From Erysipelotrichaceae bacterium (GTDB lineage: Bacteria; Bacillota_I; Bacilli_A; Erysipelotrichales; Erysipelotrichaceae), in contig JALEZD010000018.1 of assembly GCA_022772735.1 (NCBI GenBank), positions 124,001 through 188,000 on the forward strand: a stretch of DNA of 64,000 bases, given 5' to 3'. Position numbers and translations under genes: made by a program. Under the pieces are notes generated by a model. It worked only from the letters and a program-made list of their open reading frames with translations. It ran no database searches and was not told the origin of the DNA. Each line of letters opens with the position of its first letter. The stretch's first letter is position 1. Below are positions 32,510 to 38,741 of the stretch, one piece after another.

Positions 32510-33775
32510 TTATTTTTTTGATTTATTCACAATTATTTTCATTAAACTTACAAGCAATATCATAATTATAATAAACGCAAAAATTTTCATTTTATTATTA
32601 ATTACAAACCAAAAAAGTACAGTTAATATATATGCAATAAATTGTTTTTCAATATCTTTTGATGGATATAAGCTTGTTTCATAAATAATATTATCATTTT
32701 CTAGTATTTTAAGTGTTCCAACTACATCATCTACAGAAATAGGTGCATTTATTGACTTTTCTGAATCAACAACCACTTTTACATTTGAAGAATTATTAAC
32801 TATTCTATTAATCTCTTCTGTAGCTTTTATTTCTACTTTTTTATGATTAAAATTAAAATTTACGGGAATTTCTAAAATTACGTCATTCTCATTGTAAAAA
32901 ACTTTTTTGTGAAAATTGTTATAGTAATAATTGTATATTATTTCAGCATCTAATACATGACTTGGTATTTCTCTTGAAATCCATGCATGTGCACTTATAA
33001 GCGCATACCTTACACCATCTTTTTCTGCAATAGATGCCAAACAATATCTAGCTTGATTGGTGTATCCACTTTTTGCGCCAAGAAAACCATCAATACTAAC
33101 ATTGTACTTTAATTTAGAATCATTATTAATATACTTAAACACTGTTGATACCATTTCTATACCATTTGGATTACTATTTATTGGAATAGAAGTGTGTGTT
33201 TTACTTTTAAAAATTGTTGACCATAATTCATTTTTAAGACCATATTCCATTAATTTAGCAATATCTTGTAAAGTTGAATAATGATTATCATCATGTAATC
33301 CAGTTACATTTTTGAAATTTGTATTCGTCATCCCAATTTCTTTTGCTTTATTATTCATTAATTCAACATAATTTTCTAAATTACCACTTACATAATAAGC
33401 CAGTGCATTTGTACAATCTGCCCCTGATGGCAAATTGACTCCATACATCAAATCCAATAGTCTAGGCTCATCACCTACTTTAAATCCAGCTTGTGAAGCA
33501 TTTGCTTCATTTAATCCTCTAAGCATTTCATCAGTTATTGTTATTGTTTCTTCGGGATTTGAAATATTTTCTATCGCAACAATCAAGGTCATCATTTTTG
33601 TCATTGATGCAGGATATATTTTTTCATTTGAACCTTTATCAATTAATACTTGTTTATTGTCTAAATCATATAAATAAACATAATCACTTACATATTCTAT
33701 TTCTTCACCATAAACATTCAAAAAATTTGTAAAAAAACAAAATATAACAACTATTATTGTCAATAATCTTTTCAT
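32510..33775 (-). CDS. D-alanyl-D-alanine carboxypeptidase (serine type, PBP5-like)
   Basis: A 421-residue S11 peptidase. It has a signal peptide (residues 1-24, ending VYGEE), the SXXK motif in YPASMTKMM, the second motif around LPSGADCTNA, and the KSG box KSGYTNQ. The C-terminal beta domain is followed by a membrane anchor (about residues 395-415) and a basic tail, as in DacF/PBP5. It removes the terminal D-Ala of peptidoglycan. Confidence 0.93.
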   Translation of the reverse strand: MKRLLTIIVVIFCFFTNFLNVYGEEIEYVSDYVYLYDLDNKQVLIDKGSNEKIYPASMTKMMTLIVAIENISNPEETITITDEMLRGLNEANASQAGFKVGDEPRLLDLMYGVNLPSGADCTNALAYYVSGNLENYVELMNNKAKEIGMTNTNFKNVTGLHDDNHYSTLQDIAKLMEYGLKNELWSTIFKSKTHTSIPINSNPNGIEMVSTVFKYINNDSKLKYNVSIDGFLGAKSGYTNQARYCLASIAEKDGVRYALISAHAWISREIPSHVLDAEIIYNYYYNNFHKKVFYNENDVILEIPVNFNFNHKKVEIKATEEINRIVNNSSNVKVVVDSEKSINAPISVDDVVGTLKILENDNIIYETSLYPSKDIEKQFIAYILTVLFWFVINNKMKIFAFIIIMILLVSLMKIIVNKSKK

Positions 33776-33842
33776 AAAACACCTCTTTTTTTATTATACT
33801 AGTTTTTGACTATATTTTAAGTTTAATTTATAATTAGCACAT

Positions 33843-33926
33843 GCGCCAATGGTGGAATGGCAGACACGCACGCTTGAGGGGCGTTTGAGGAAACTCGTGC
33901 AAGTTCAAGTCTTGTTTGGCGCACCA
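33843..33926 (+). tRNA. tRNA-Leu (anticodon GAG)
   Basis: Acceptor GCGCCAA pairs with TTGGCGC, the D-arm runs through GGTGGAATGG, the anticodon GAG is at 33876-33878 in the loop TTGAGGG, a long variable arm (GAG-GAAA-CTC) marks a class II tRNA, the T-arm has GTTCAAGT, and CCA is encoded (33924-33926). Leucine follows from the anticodon and long variable arm. Confidence 0.93.
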
Positions 33927-33936
33927 TATATAACTT

Positions 33937-33962
33937 AATAACCTTAATTAGGTTATTTTTTT
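33937..33962 (+). terminator. Terminator after tRNA-Leu
   Basis: AATAACCT (33937-33944), five-base loop, AGGTTATT (33950-33957), then a T run. Confidence 0.85.
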
Positions 33963-34034
33963 GAAATAAAATCAAAGTTAGTGTAATTTAACTCATTAAT
34001 TGTATAATTGTTATTATAGAAAGAAGGATTAAAA

Positions 34035-35147
34035 ATGATTAAAGCTAATATTATCTCAGGATTTTTAGGGGCAGGTAAAACTACTCTAATATCTAAACTT
34101 ATAAAAGAAGCATTCTCTGATGAAAAAGTTGTACTAATTGAAAATGAATTTGGAGAAATTGGTATTGATGGTGGTTTTTTAAAAGAATCAGGAATAGTAA
34201 TTAACGAAATGAACTCTGGTTGTATTTGTTGTAGTTTAGTAGGTGATTTTGAAGAATCACTAAAAGAAGTAATTAGAACATATAATCCAACAAGAATTAT
34301 TATAGAACCATCAGGTGTTGGTAAATTATCTGATGTTATTAAAGCAGTTAAATCTGTTGATGGAATTGAAATATCTAGCTACTCTACTGTTGTTGATACA
34401 AATAAAGCTAGAATATATTCTAAAAATTTTAAAGAATTTTTCATTGATCAAGTTGAAACTGCTTCATGTGTTATTTTAAGTAAAACTAAAAATGCAGAAC
34501 TTGAAAAACTAAAAGAAACTGTAGAAATTGTAAAACTACTTAATCCATTAGGAAGAGTAATAACAACTGATTGGGATTTACTAAATGGTAAAGAAATATT
34601 AAAAGTAATGGAAGGTAGTGTTGACTTATTTAAACATGAATGTGGTTGTAGCTATCATGATGAACATCATCATGAACACGAATGTGGTTGTAGCCACCAT
34701 GATGAACATCATCACGAACATAAATGTGGTTGTAGCCACCATGATGAACATCATCACGAACACGAATGTGGTTGTGGACACCATGATGAACATCATCATG
34801 AACAAGAATGTGGTTGTAGCCATCATGATGAACATCATCACAAACATGAATGTGGTTGTAATCACCATCACCATCATGCTGAAGAACATTTTACAAGTAT
34901 AGGAATGGAAACGATTAATAAATATTCTAAAGAAGATTTAAAAAATATATTATCGCAGTTAGACAACAACATTTTGAGAGCTAAAGGTATAGTTCAAGAT
35001 TATGATGGAAAATGGTTATTCTTTGATTTTGTTCCAGAAGAAATAAATATTAGAGAAGGAAATCCAAGCTATACTGGTTTAATAACAGTAATTGGTACTA
35101 AAGATACAGATATTGATAGTATAAAAAAACTGTTTGGAGTTAAATAA
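34035..35147 (+). CDS. COG0523 (CobW/YjiA-type) GTPase with a His/Cys-rich metal-binding linker
   Basis: A 370-residue P-loop GTPase of the metallochaperone type. Walker A GFLGAGKTT (residues 9-17), the switch ENEFGEIGIDGG, and the diagnostic CXCC motif (GCICCS, Cys63, Cys65, Cys66). Between the GTPase and the C-terminal domain lies an insert (residues 201-285) of six 14-residue units (HECGCSHHDEHHHE type), rich in His and Cys, expected to bind zinc or another transition metal. The C-terminal CobW_C domain begins near 290. It overlaps the next gene by one base, and its product probably delivers metal to a client; that role is inferred from the family. Confidence 0.9.
   Translation: MIKANIISGFLGAGKTTLISKLIKEAFSDEKVVLIENEFGEIGIDGGFLKESGIVINEMNSGCICCSLVGDFEESLKEVIRTYNPTRIIIEPSGVGKLSDVIKAVKSVDGIEISSYSTVVDTNKARIYSKNFKEFFIDQVETASCVILSKTKNAELEKLKETVEIVKLLNPLGRVITTDWDLLNGKEILKVMEGSVDLFKHECGCSYHDEHHHEHECGCSHHDEHHHEHKCGCSHHDEHHHEHECGCGHHDEHHHEQECGCSHHDEHHHKHECGCNHHHHHAEEHFTSIGMETINKYSKEDLKNILSQLDNNILRAKGIVQDYDGKWLFFDFVPEEINIREGNPSYTGLITVIGTKDTDIDSIKKLFGVK
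34635..34886 (+). repeat. Six tandem 42-bp repeats encoding metal-binding units
   Basis: Five near-identical 42-bp units and a shorter sixth encode 14-residue HxCGC-HHDEHHHE blocks in the COG0523 protein. Repeat number could change by slippage and so tune metal binding. Confidence 0.9.
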
Positions 35148-36085
35148 TGCCCGCATTAGTTTATGTAATAACTGGATTTTTAGATAGTGGGAAAACATCA
35201 CTTATAAAAGAAACACTTGAAGATGCTGAATTTACTGCAGACAACAACAAAACACTTATCATACAGTTTGAAGAAGGTGAAGTATCTTTTTCAAAAGATT
35301 GGCTGGATTCACACAATGCAGATTCAGTATCCCTAAATTTTGAAGAATTTAATGAAGAAAAAATGGAAGAATTGAATAAGCAGTTTTCTCCACAACAAAT
35401 ATTTATTGAATTAAACGGTTTAATATCTGTTGAACAATTTTTAAAAACTAAATTAATTAAAGGTTGGTTAATTGTACAAATACTTACAACTATAGATGCA
35501 TCAACATTTATTTCATATATGAATAACCTAAAATCATATATGTATGAGATTATCAAATATACACAAACAATAATATTTAATAGAGTTGATAAAAATATTT
35601 CTAAAAGAATACTAAGAAACAATATAAAAGCTGTAAATAGAGAAGCACAAATTATATATATAAATAAAGAAAATAAAGTTGAAAACTATGACATAAACGA
35701 CTTGCCATTTGATTTAACAAGTAATTGCATTGATATTAGTAATGATGATTATGGATTATGGTATATGGATGCTTTGGAAAATATGTCTAGATACAACAAT
35801 AAACAAATTATTATTAGAGGAAAGTTCTTAGAAAAAATCGAAAAATTACAACATTCGTTTATTTTAGGAAGATACGCAATGGTATGTTGTGCAAACGATA
35901 TGCAGCAAATTGCCATAACAGTTACTGGTGTTAATGTGTCACAAATGAAATTAAATGATTGGTACGAAGTTGAAGGAACATTGAGAAGTGTTGATAGAGG
36001 AGATGGCTCAAGTACACTTGTCTTATATGCTTCAAAAATTCAGACAACTTTAGCTCCACAATATGAATTTGTTGAATTTAATTAA
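35147..36085 (+). CDS. COG0523-like GTPase fused to a DUF1980 (YcgQ/TIGR03943-type) domain
   Basis: A 312-residue protein. Residues 1-200 are CobW-like: TGFLDSGKTSL (P-loop) and a NRVD motif (145-148) at the place of the guanine-specificity loop; the CXCC motif and CobW_C domain are absent. From about 207 the sequence resembles the C-terminal domain of YcgQ/DUF1980 proteins: LGRYAMVCCANDMQQIAITV (paired Cys at 247-248) and W-EVEGTL. In other Firmicutes YcgQ is paired with a YcgR permease and linked with zinc or other metal homeostasis. The preceding gene overlaps it by one base, giving a two-gene metal operon. Confidence 0.75.
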   Translation: MPALVYVITGFLDSGKTSLIKETLEDAEFTADNNKTLIIQFEEGEVSFSKDWLDSHNADSVSLNFEEFNEEKMEELNKQFSPQQIFIELNGLISVEQFLKTKLIKGWLIVQILTTIDASTFISYMNNLKSYMYEIIKYTQTIIFNRVDKNISKRILRNNIKAVNREAQIIYINKENKVENYDINDLPFDLTSNCIDISNDDYGLWYMDALENMSRYNNKQIIIRGKFLEKIEKLQHSFILGRYAMVCCANDMQQIAITVTGVNVSQMKLNDWYEVEGTLRSVDRGDGSSTLVLYASKIQTTLAPQYEFVEFN

Positions 36086-36147
36086 TACAAAAACCACTTC
36101 ATTGATATGTACAATAGTTATGGCATATCGAAGTGGTTTTTTGTATT
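36084..36147. terminator. Strong bidirectional terminator
   Basis: AATACAAAAACCACTTC (36084-36100) and the complementary GAAGTGGTTTTTTGTATT (36130-36147), with inner GATATG/CATATC. The A/T flanks allow termination both ways between convergent genes. Confidence 0.85.
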
Positions 36148-36170
36148 AACATTTATATAGGGAGAGAAGA

Positions 36171-36200
36171 AATCAATCAAATATAACTATTTGATTGGTT
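36171..36200. terminator. Second hairpin between convergent genes
   Basis: AATCAATCAAAT with ATTTGATTGGTT around six bases; probable extra terminator for the anti-sigma gene or the metal operon. The T tract is modest, so the assignment is tentative. Confidence 0.45.
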
Positions 36201-36258
36201 TTATTCTATATTTCTTTAGTGAAATCTATATGTATATATAGTGAAAATTTTGTGTAAC

Positions 36259-36972
36259 TTATCTATTATTTATTAAATATTCCGATATATTTCCATGTAT
36301 ATCTTTTACAAAAACCTTAAATGTTTCACCAGCATAATTATATGTAATAACATTTCCATTTATATATGGTTTAATAACTCCATTATCTCCTATTCCATAC
36401 GCACTTGAAACATCAATTTCACTAACATCACTATATGTTATGTTATATTGATTTCCAAAATTTGTACAAATATCAATAGTTGGACCAAGGTTATCCACAA
36501 TATTAACATTAACTACCTTTTCACTTATATTTCCAACACCATTCACAACTTTAACAGTATATTGTCCATTATTTTCTATTCCAATAATGTAATTGCCATT
36601 TTCAATTTGTGATTGAATTACGTTACCATTTTCATCAATTGCAAAAACTTCACGAACTCCCATTTTATTTGCTAAATCTAGCTTTATATAGGTAGAATCC
36701 AAATTATTTTCCACAACAACATTTTCAATTTTAGGAATATAAGTGCAATAAACAGCCAAAACAACACTTATACTTGCAAGCAAACCTGTGTTTAACACCA
36801 AACTATTTCTAATAAATTTTTGCTTTGTTTTAATTCTATTAAATTCTACATTTGAATTCATATTTTGTGATAGAAGAATTTCTTTTAAAATATCCAATGA
36901 TTTTTCTTCATCCATTTGTATTTCCTTAGAAGCTTCAACTAATGCATTCCTAATTTTTATTCCCTCAAACAT
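36259..36972 (-). CDS. Membrane-bound anti-sigma factor-like protein
   Basis: A 237-residue protein with a cytosolic N-terminus (residues 1-50), one membrane segment (about 53-70) and an extracytoplasmic part with beta-strand repeats (residues about 80-235; TVKVVNGVGNISEKVV, FKVFVKDIHGNISEY) resembling Ig-like domains. It follows the ECF sigma factor gene with a one-base overlap, so it is almost certainly the cognate anti-sigma factor. It lacks a visible zinc (HXXXCXXC) motif. The signal it senses is unknown. Confidence 0.75.
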   Translation of the reverse strand: MFEGIKIRNALVEASKEIQMDEEKSLDILKEILLSQNMNSNVEFNRIKTKQKFIRNSLVLNTGLLASISVVLAVYCTYIPKIENVVVENNLDSTYIKLDLANKMGVREVFAIDENGNVIQSQIENGNYIIGIENNGQYTVKVVNGVGNISEKVVNVNIVDNLGPTIDICTNFGNQYNITYSDVSEIDVSSAYGIGDNGVIKPYINGNVITYNYAGETFKVFVKDIHGNISEYLINNR

Positions 36973-37538
36973 TAAATAATCTCCCCTTTATTTTTCAAGT
37001 TTTCTTTAAGTATTTTCTTAGCCTTATTTAATCTACTTTTAACAGTTCCTATAGGAACTTCAATTGCCTCTGCAATCTCTTTTTCTTTCATATCCTTAAA
37101 ATATTTCATAATTACAACAATTCTCATTGGATATGGCAAATGTGAAATTAACTCATTAATCTCTTTTTTCTTTTCATTCTCCATTATTGTAAAAAGAGGA
37201 TTTGAATGTGGATTTTCATCTACAATATTTGTTATTTCATCATCAGAAATATTAATATTTTTTTCCTTTTCAATTATTTTTAATGCAATTCTATAGTTTA
37301 TCTTGTTTAGCCATGAAACAAACAGTTTTTCATCTTTTAATGTATTGATATATTTTAAAGCATGCATATAGGTTTCTTGTACAACATCATAAGCTAAATT
37401 TTCATCATGGGTTAAATAAATAGAGAAAAAATAAACACTTTGATATGTCATTTCATATAGACTAGAAAAAGCGTTTGAATCACCATTTTTTACCTTAATA
37501 ACTAAATTTTTTATTTCGTTATGATTAATTGCAGACAT
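36972..37538 (-). CDS. ECF-type RNA polymerase sigma factor
   Basis: A 188-residue sigma-70 family protein of ECF length. Region 2 (YDVVQETYMHALKYI, LFVSWLNKINYRIALKII) and region 4 (PMRIVVIMKYFKDMKEKEIAEAIEVPIGTVKSRLNKAKKIL split across helices, with the TVKSRL recognition helix) are complete. It directly precedes the anti-sigma gene. Target promoters are not known. Confidence 0.93.
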   Translation of the reverse strand: MSAINHNEIKNLVIKVKNGDSNAFSSLYEMTYQSVYFFSIYLTHDENLAYDVVQETYMHALKYINTLKDEKLFVSWLNKINYRIALKIIEKEKNINISDDEITNIVDENPHSNPLFTIMENEKKKEINELISHLPYPMRIVVIMKYFKDMKEKEIAEAIEVPIGTVKSRLNKAKKILKENLKNKGEII

Positions 37539-37618
37539 AAAACAAAATTTTCCCCTATTGCAATTAATTATACATTATTTATATATAAAAATCATGTATA
37601 ATTATACTGAGGTAGCAT

Positions 37619-38185
37619 ATGGAAGAATTATTTAAAACAGTTAAATTCGGTGGATATGATAAAGAAGAAGTTTTAGAATTTATTAATAATAAATTTGAAC
37701 AGTATGAAAAAAACGAAGAAAAAAATCATACTACTATTTTGGAAAATAAATTAGAAATAGAAACTTTAAAAAATAAATTATTGGATTATGAAGAAAAACT
37801 TGCTTCAACTCTTGTCGAAAATCAAAGACTGGTTGATGTAATAACACATCAAGAAACTCAACTAGTTCAAGAATACTCACAAAGTCAAATAGTAAGCACT
37901 TTAGTAACAGCAAAAAACGTAAGTGAAAAAATCATTAATGATGCAAACTTAAAAGCAGAAGGTCTTATGAGAATCGCAAAATCAGATGCTTATCAAAAAA
38001 TAAAATTTAAAACTGATTCTAATAAAATATTAGAAGATTATGAAATAAGATTTAAAACATTAATGAAAAATATACACACTTTAAGTGAAATAAGTTCAGA
38101 CTTATTATCAACTGTCAAAAACATAGATGATTCACTTAAGGAAATGTCGCAAAATTTACCAATAGAAATCAGAGAAAATGAATAA
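37619..38185 (+). CDS. DivIVA-like coiled-coil protein
   Basis: A 188-residue protein whose N-terminus (TVKFGGYDKEEVLEFINNKFEQYE) is the DivIVA lipid-binding start, followed by long coiled-coil (residues about 25-95, and 100-185). It lacks the longer tail of GpsB and is shorter than typical DivIVA. It likely marks curved membrane at the division site or poles. It overlaps the signal peptidase gene by eight bases, so the two are coupled. GAGG lies ahead of the start. Confidence 0.85.
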   Translation: MEELFKTVKFGGYDKEEVLEFINNKFEQYEKNEEKNHTTILENKLEIETLKNKLLDYEEKLASTLVENQRLVDVITHQETQLVQEYSQSQIVSTLVTAKNVSEKIINDANLKAEGLMRIAKSDAYQKIKFKTDSNKILEDYEIRFKTLMKNIHTLSEISSDLLSTVKNIDDSLKEMSQNLPIEIRENE

Positions 38186-38741
38186 CATCAGAGAAAAAGT
38201 ATATTTAGATTTAAAAGAAATAAAAAGAAAAAAAGAAAGCTATAAAAAATATTCTAGCTCTTTTAAGTCTGCTTTTTCTATAATTTTGCCCTCTTTAATT
38301 TTAATAATTATTTTTCAATTTTTTATTGGAATTGCTAGGGTAAAAGGATCATCAATGAACAATACACTTTATGAAGGAGATTTTGTATTGTTTAACAGGT
38401 TAACCAACAATTACAAATATGAAGATGTTATTGTAGCTAAAAAAAGTGATGAAAATAAATTTATCATAAAAAGAATTATTGGACTACCTAATGACACCAT
38501 AAATATTAAAGATGGTTATGTTATTTTAAACGGAGTGAAAATTTCAGAAAATAAATACACGTTAGATGGTACAACTCAACTTCAAAATAGAACATTTCCA
38601 ATAACTTTAAGTGAAAATGAATATTTTCTACTAGGTGATAATAGAGCTCTTTCTTTAGACAGTAGAAGCATAGAAACAGGAAACATCAAAAAAAATCAAA
38701 TACTTGGAAAAGTATTCTTTATTTCCAGATTATTTAAATAG
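38178..38741 (+). CDS. lepB: Signal peptidase I
   Basis: A 187-residue S26 peptidase. One N-terminal membrane helix (about residues 28-52), then the catalytic Ser in VKGSSMNNTL, the catalytic Lys in IIKRIIGLPNDTI, and GDNRALSLDSR. It releases proteins from the membrane after export. Coupled to the DivIVA-like gene by an eight-base overlap. Confidence 0.94.
   Translation: MNNIREKVYLDLKEIKRKKESYKKYSSSFKSAFSIILPSLILIIIFQFFIGIARVKGSSMNNTLYEGDFVLFNRLTNNYKYEDVIVAKKSDENKFIIKRIIGLPNDTINIKDGYVILNGVKISENKYTLDGTTQLQNRTFPITLSENEYFLLGDNRALSLDSRSIETGNIKKNQILGKVFFISRLFK

Follow-up and report, generated by a model that had tools for sequence, protein, structure and literature searches.

A strictly paired COG0523-type GTPase and a G3E GTPase-DUF1980_C fusion as a putative metal-chaperone module of gut Bacillota

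In the stretch of 64,000 nucleotides from an Erysipelotrichaceae bacterium that was analysed in this study (the window), two overlapping genes encode a GTPase of the COG0523 type with a metal-binding motif and a second G3E GTPase, whose C-terminal part is a DUF1980_C domain. The two genes are an obligate pair, and many gut Bacillota have inherited them together. Judged from the sequences, and with moderate confidence, the pair is taken to act inside the cell as a single metal-chaperone module, with zinc as its most likely metal; in this module, the product of gene 2 would hand the metal over via DUF1980_C. The pair comprises the following features:

34035..35147, + strand: gene 1, COG0523-type G3E GTPase of 370 amino acids with metal-binding motif and His/Cys-rich linker (PF02492, E 1.2e-35)
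34221..34232, + strand: CICC (CxCC) metal-binding motif of gene 1, residues 63-66 (from the sequence; invariant in 30 aligned homologues)
34633..34868, + strand: 42-bp tandem array in gene 1 encoding His/Cys units of the ECGCSHHDEHHHEH type (period 42, 5.6 copies, 89% matches)
35147..36085, + strand: gene 2, G3E GTPase domain fused to DUF1980_C, 312 amino acids (profile matches, alignment and predicted structure)
35159..35656, + strand: G domain of gene 2 (PF02492) with Walker A kept, CxCC absent, and the motifs IELNG and NRVD (profile, alignment and structure comparison)
35678..36061, + strand: DUF1980_C domain of gene 2 (PF21537), predicted OB fold (profile and predicted structure)
35885..35899, + strand: invariant CC-x2-D of gene 2 (C247, C248, D251), proposed metal site (alignments)

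Both genes share one base, the stop codon of gene 1 and the start codon of gene 2 overlapping in the sequence TAATG. An earlier note on this DNA had described such a two-gene unit, consisting of a COG0523 GTPase and a CobW-like domain without CXCC that is joined to a DUF1980-type C-terminal part with paired cysteines, and the profile searches and alignments agreed with each of these assignments. In gene 1, the Walker A motif GFLGAGKTT is invariant among 30 aligned homologues as well, and CxCC is the characteristic metal motif of COG0523 proteins (PMC9164220). The C-terminus of the protein matched CobW_C (PF07683) weakly (E 0.0033; 17.7 bits, below the cut-off of 22 bits). The repeat array is placed between the G-domain motifs (GFLGAGKTT, CICC) and this C-terminus. 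Six His/Cys units of 14 residues had been counted in the earlier note; the repeat is real, but this number was slightly generous, as tandem-repeat analysis gave five full units and a truncated sixth. Length and His content of the linker differ widely among relatives, which suggests that the array is a rapidly evolving tail for metal buffering and not a structure of fixed form.

The protein encoded by gene 2 matched PF02492 with residues 5-170 (E 1.5e-12) and PF21537 (DUF1980_C) with residues 178-305 (E 2.2e-14; 53.8 bits versus a gathering score of 25.9). Additionally, residues 187-305 matched the C-terminal part of TIGR03943, the family of YcgQ and ScfB (E 6e-20), with a score of 71.5 bits, which is below the equivalog cut-off of 88.8 bits. 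No match to CobW_C was obtained for this protein in the profile search, and DUF1980_C stands in its place.

The AlphaFold2 model of the gene 2 protein (36 homologues) is confident and consists of two domains (pLDDT 91.9). In the structure comparison, its G domain was closest to HypB, YjiA and UreG (Z 12.4-14.0), and YjiA was also found when the PDB was searched by sequence. The alignments of the full model spanned the G domain only; therefore, the C domain was predicted (pLDDT 91.2) and searched separately. The closest solved folds of the isolated domain were OB folds, namely those of PriB, SSB and anticodon-binding domains of aminoacyl-tRNA synthetases. Binding of nucleic acids is common among OB folds, and the predicted OB fold of DUF1980_C shows no function by itself. 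A C-terminal part unrelated to DUF1980 is contradicted by the profile match together with the predicted folded OB domain.

Compared with the COG0523/CobW family (YjiA, ZagA/YciC, ZigA, CobW, Nha3), gene 1 shares the P-loop, CxCC, the His-rich linker and possibly CobW_C (weak match), and gene 2 shares the fold of the G domain (YjiA, Z 13.7). Gene 2 differs from this family by the loss of CxCC and CobW_C and by its DUF1980_C end, and both genes differ from it by their obligate pairing. The nickel G3E GTPases HypB and UreG likewise resemble the gene 2 G domain (Z 12-14), and dimeric G3E chaperones serve as a model for the proposed pair; however, no hydrogenase or urease context was seen at the loci of the pair, and the C-terminal part is another one.

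Among 97 related genomes, PF21537 was detected in 63, nearly always within a frame of about 310-330 amino acids, and 35 loci retrieved from relatives were confirmed to carry the fusion. A scan of named genomes yielded 577 relatives among the candidates, the best 80 of which include Solobacterium, Holdemania, Dielma, Merdibacter, Massilimicrobiota, Sharpea, Lachnospiraceae and Oscillospiraceae. Altogether, the domain searches for further fusions, as suggested in the earlier note, provided 118 distinct fusion proteins from Erysipelotrichales, related orders, Lachnospiraceae and Oscillospiraceae; the fusion also occurs in further families of the same class. All 118 possess Walker A and the motif R/K-x4-CC-x2-D, and none possesses CxCC. 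E88, the Glu in G3, is invariant in the aligned fusions, and the G4 motif NRx[D/E] is complete in 59 of the 118, GTP hydrolysis by the fusion being putative. Conservation of the fusion and of its paired cysteines across orders is far beyond chance.

A gene of the gene 1 type is located directly upstream of 112 of the 118 fusions, mostly overlapping or only a few bases away. For the remaining six, gene 1 sequence was found upstream by tblastn, and five of these six are cut by a contig end. Conversely, the fusion was present in every relative that carries a gene of the gene 1 type (61/61; Fisher p 4e-24, which is indicative only, as the genomes are related). No conserved third gene was found; the commonest neighbour cluster besides gene 1 occurred in 10 of 75 loci. 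In the record of a Vescimonas fastidiosa plasmid, the pair is annotated as "CobW family GTP-binding protein" and "GTP-binding protein". The fusion is not mentioned in the literature searched, in which DUF1980 is named in a table of one paper; an earlier mention in the main COG0523 review (mfab046) is possible. Furthermore, the fusion is encoded on three unannotated faecal scaffolds labelled 'Bacteriophage sp.' (MT835785.1, MT835561.1 and MT838432.1), which are probably bacterial DNA mislabelled as phage.

To our knowledge, no function is known for DUF1980. As stated in the earlier note, canonical DUF1980 proteins are normally paired with a YcgR-type permease (PF03773), which was seen in genome G221 and on plasmids of Priestia and Pontibacillus. 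The YcgQ and ScfB proteins of TIGR03943, whose permeases are YcgR and ScfA, have DUF1980_C with CC-x2-D in common with the fusion; they differ by N-terminal membrane helices, where the fusion has its G3E domain, and by the permease partner, which the fusion lacks. The function of YcgQ/ScfB is unknown; together with the permease ScfA, ScfB is needed for the fitness of group A Streptococcus in soft tissue (PMC5584981). A permease as hidden partner of the fusion was considered and rejected. The data give no indication that the fusion works by way of this permease, because both PF03773 and PF09323, the DUF1980 membrane domain, were absent from the present genome in the profile search, and among the 97 relatives the permease occurred in 27 of 63 genomes with PF21537 versus 13 of 34 without (p 0.83). 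In Priestia, genes for a cation P-type ATPase and for HMA2 proteins adjoin the DUF1980-permease pair, and the permease of G221 (L209:4849-5760) has a Cys/His-rich loop, DSCECHNHEDYKH, which fits a metal substrate of the YcgR-YcgQ pair.

The present genome (G000) encodes one further PF21537 protein (G000:C23:58154-58459), which has 180 amino acids and a lipoprotein-type signal. Its gene ends an operon for a Fur-family regulator, ZnuA with a ZinT domain, an ABC ATPase and an ABC-3 membrane protein:

L037:10089-14120 (G000:C23): operon of Fur-type regulator, znuA(ZinT), znuC and znuB with terminal DUF1980_C lipoprotein

Similar operons are present in the loci L048, L052, L212 and L219, the last one without a Fur-type gene called adjacent. 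Thus, the order znuA-znuC-znuB-lipoprotein is found in five genomes of one family (G000, G007, G038, G048 and G241); the Fur-family regulator gene accompanies it in G000, G038, G048 and G241 and was not seen in G007. All five stand-alone short DUF1980_C proteins that were met lie inside znuA-znuC-znuB operons. They have the domain and its CC-x2-D motif in common with the fusion and differ by their extracytoplasmic location, the lack of a GTPase and the position of their genes at the end of the operon. Two further loci, L075 and L076, were rejected as encoding DUF1980_C proteins; their matches were weak, below the cut-off and without the CC motif.

In an alignment of fusions, lipoproteins and one membrane-type protein, K, I, C, C and D are invariant. 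The constancy of CC and Asp in cytoplasmic, extracytoplasmic and membrane contexts would be best explained by a metal site. The link between stand-alone DUF1980_C lipoproteins and zinc-import operons is new here and is the first concrete hint found in this study for a function of DUF1980. These lipoproteins point to DUF1980_C itself as a metal-handling module, and the likeliest role of the domain is zinc handling. It is possible, and put forward here as a tentative idea, that DUF1980_C is a general zinc-transfer module with an OB fold that is used in three places: as an extracytoplasmic lipoprotein that serves ZnuABC, as the partner of YcgR/ScfA, and, fused to a G3E GTPase without CxCC, as a cytoplasmic partner to which a COG0523 zinc chaperone hands over. 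If this is true, YcgRQ/ScfAB would be a zinc system.

A perfect palindrome, TATGAAAATGATTTTCATA, lies shortly before the gene of the Fur-type regulator (L037:14120-14160), with a similar one in G038, and this is a candidate for the zinc-regulator operator of the clade. Genome-wide, the regulator-znu operon was the only place with an exact match to the znu palindrome TGAAAATGATTTTCA, and the single-mismatch sites that were looked at lie mostly inside genes. No operator resembling it was found upstream of the GTPase pair, and a search for a Bacillus-type Zur box in front of about 100 pairs did no better than shuffles. Zinc regulation of the pair, or its co-regulation with znu, is therefore not supported.

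From these observations, the following mechanism may be proposed. The gene 1 protein, by analogy with its family, would bind and buffer metal through CxCC and the His/Cys-rich linker. The gene 2 protein, whose G3E-like GTPase domain no longer has CxCC, would be its dedicated partner, in which the OB-fold domain DUF1980_C substitutes for the usual C-terminal (targeting) domain. In this model, both proteins would associate, possibly as a G3E pseudo-heterodimer, and the GTP state would control how metal moves from the gene 1 protein onto the DUF1980_C cysteines; this domain may pass it on or present it to a client. A two-protein chaperone is the simplest model because the metal motif of gene 2 is gone, the cysteines of DUF1980_C are there instead, and the pairing is strict. 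COG0523 proteins occur widely, and for most of them no client is known; in an obligate pair of two GTPases with a swapped C-terminal domain, the chaperone and its likely next step would be physically coupled.

DUF1980_C might also be the end acceptor of the same chaperone module, so that the fusion would be a metalloprotein carrying its own loading GTPase. The fusion itself, the invariant CC-x2-D in the C domain and the occurrence of DUF1980_C elsewhere without any GTPase fit this view, which we nevertheless consider rather unlikely: we know of no catalytic function of DUF1980_C, the domain lies where a targeting domain would be expected in COG0523 proteins, and its loading must come from the gene 1 protein because the G domain of the fusion has lost CxCC. 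Of the proposal in the earlier note that DUF1980 is a client of metal delivery, the link to metal handling holds, and the role as client is one of several readings. DUF1980_C may equally be a donor or docking part, because it occupies the place of the variable C-terminal domain of COG0523, which is taken as target-specific (PMC9164220). The same family includes known members in zinc homeostasis, and the metals served by it include, besides Zn, also Co (CobW) and Fe (Nha3) (PMC9164220). A module for Co, Ni, Fe, Mn or Cu instead of zinc would agree with this, with the lack of a zinc operator before the GTPase pair and with the genes adjoining the Priestia DUF1980-permease pair; however, the znu operon is the only metal-annotated context of DUF1980_C in the clade, and another metal is thus unlikely.

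It is very improbable that the function of the paired cysteines is thiol redox or persulfide chemistry instead of metal binding. The CC motif as such would be in line with such a role, and so would a CcdA/DsbD-thioredoxin gene that several loci have as the first or second gene downstream, but this neighbourhood is limited to some lineages, the invariant Asp near CC fits a metal site, and the gene 1 protein has strong metal-binding features. Least probable of all is a GTPase that has nothing to do with metals and serves in translation or stress, its OB fold binding nucleic acids or ribosomal partners. The similarity of the C domain to PriB, SSB and anticodon-binding domains speaks for it, although the fold is common and DUF1980_C also occurs in an extracytoplasmic lipoprotein, where binding of nucleic acids is unlikely; moreover, the partner of the fusion is a G3E protein with CxCC in every case.

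Regarding the surroundings of the pair, a search of positions 33000-37000 of the window against Rfam gave no match. After gene 2, a long inverted repeat, AAAAACCACTTC ... GAAGTGGTTTTTT, is located at positions 36088-36143 of the window; it is likely a terminator, even if it is not listed by the consensus scan, for which its loop is too long. UppP-type and CcdA/DsbD-thioredoxin genes lie directly downstream of the fusion in L047, L051, L221 and seven loci of the neighbour comparison, and a redox link of the fusion is possible. In the window, the pair is followed at positions 36259-38741 by genes for an ECF sigma factor, a putative anti-sigma factor, a DivIVA-like protein and a signal peptidase, and these neighbours recur in the two genomes of the same genus (L038, L039).
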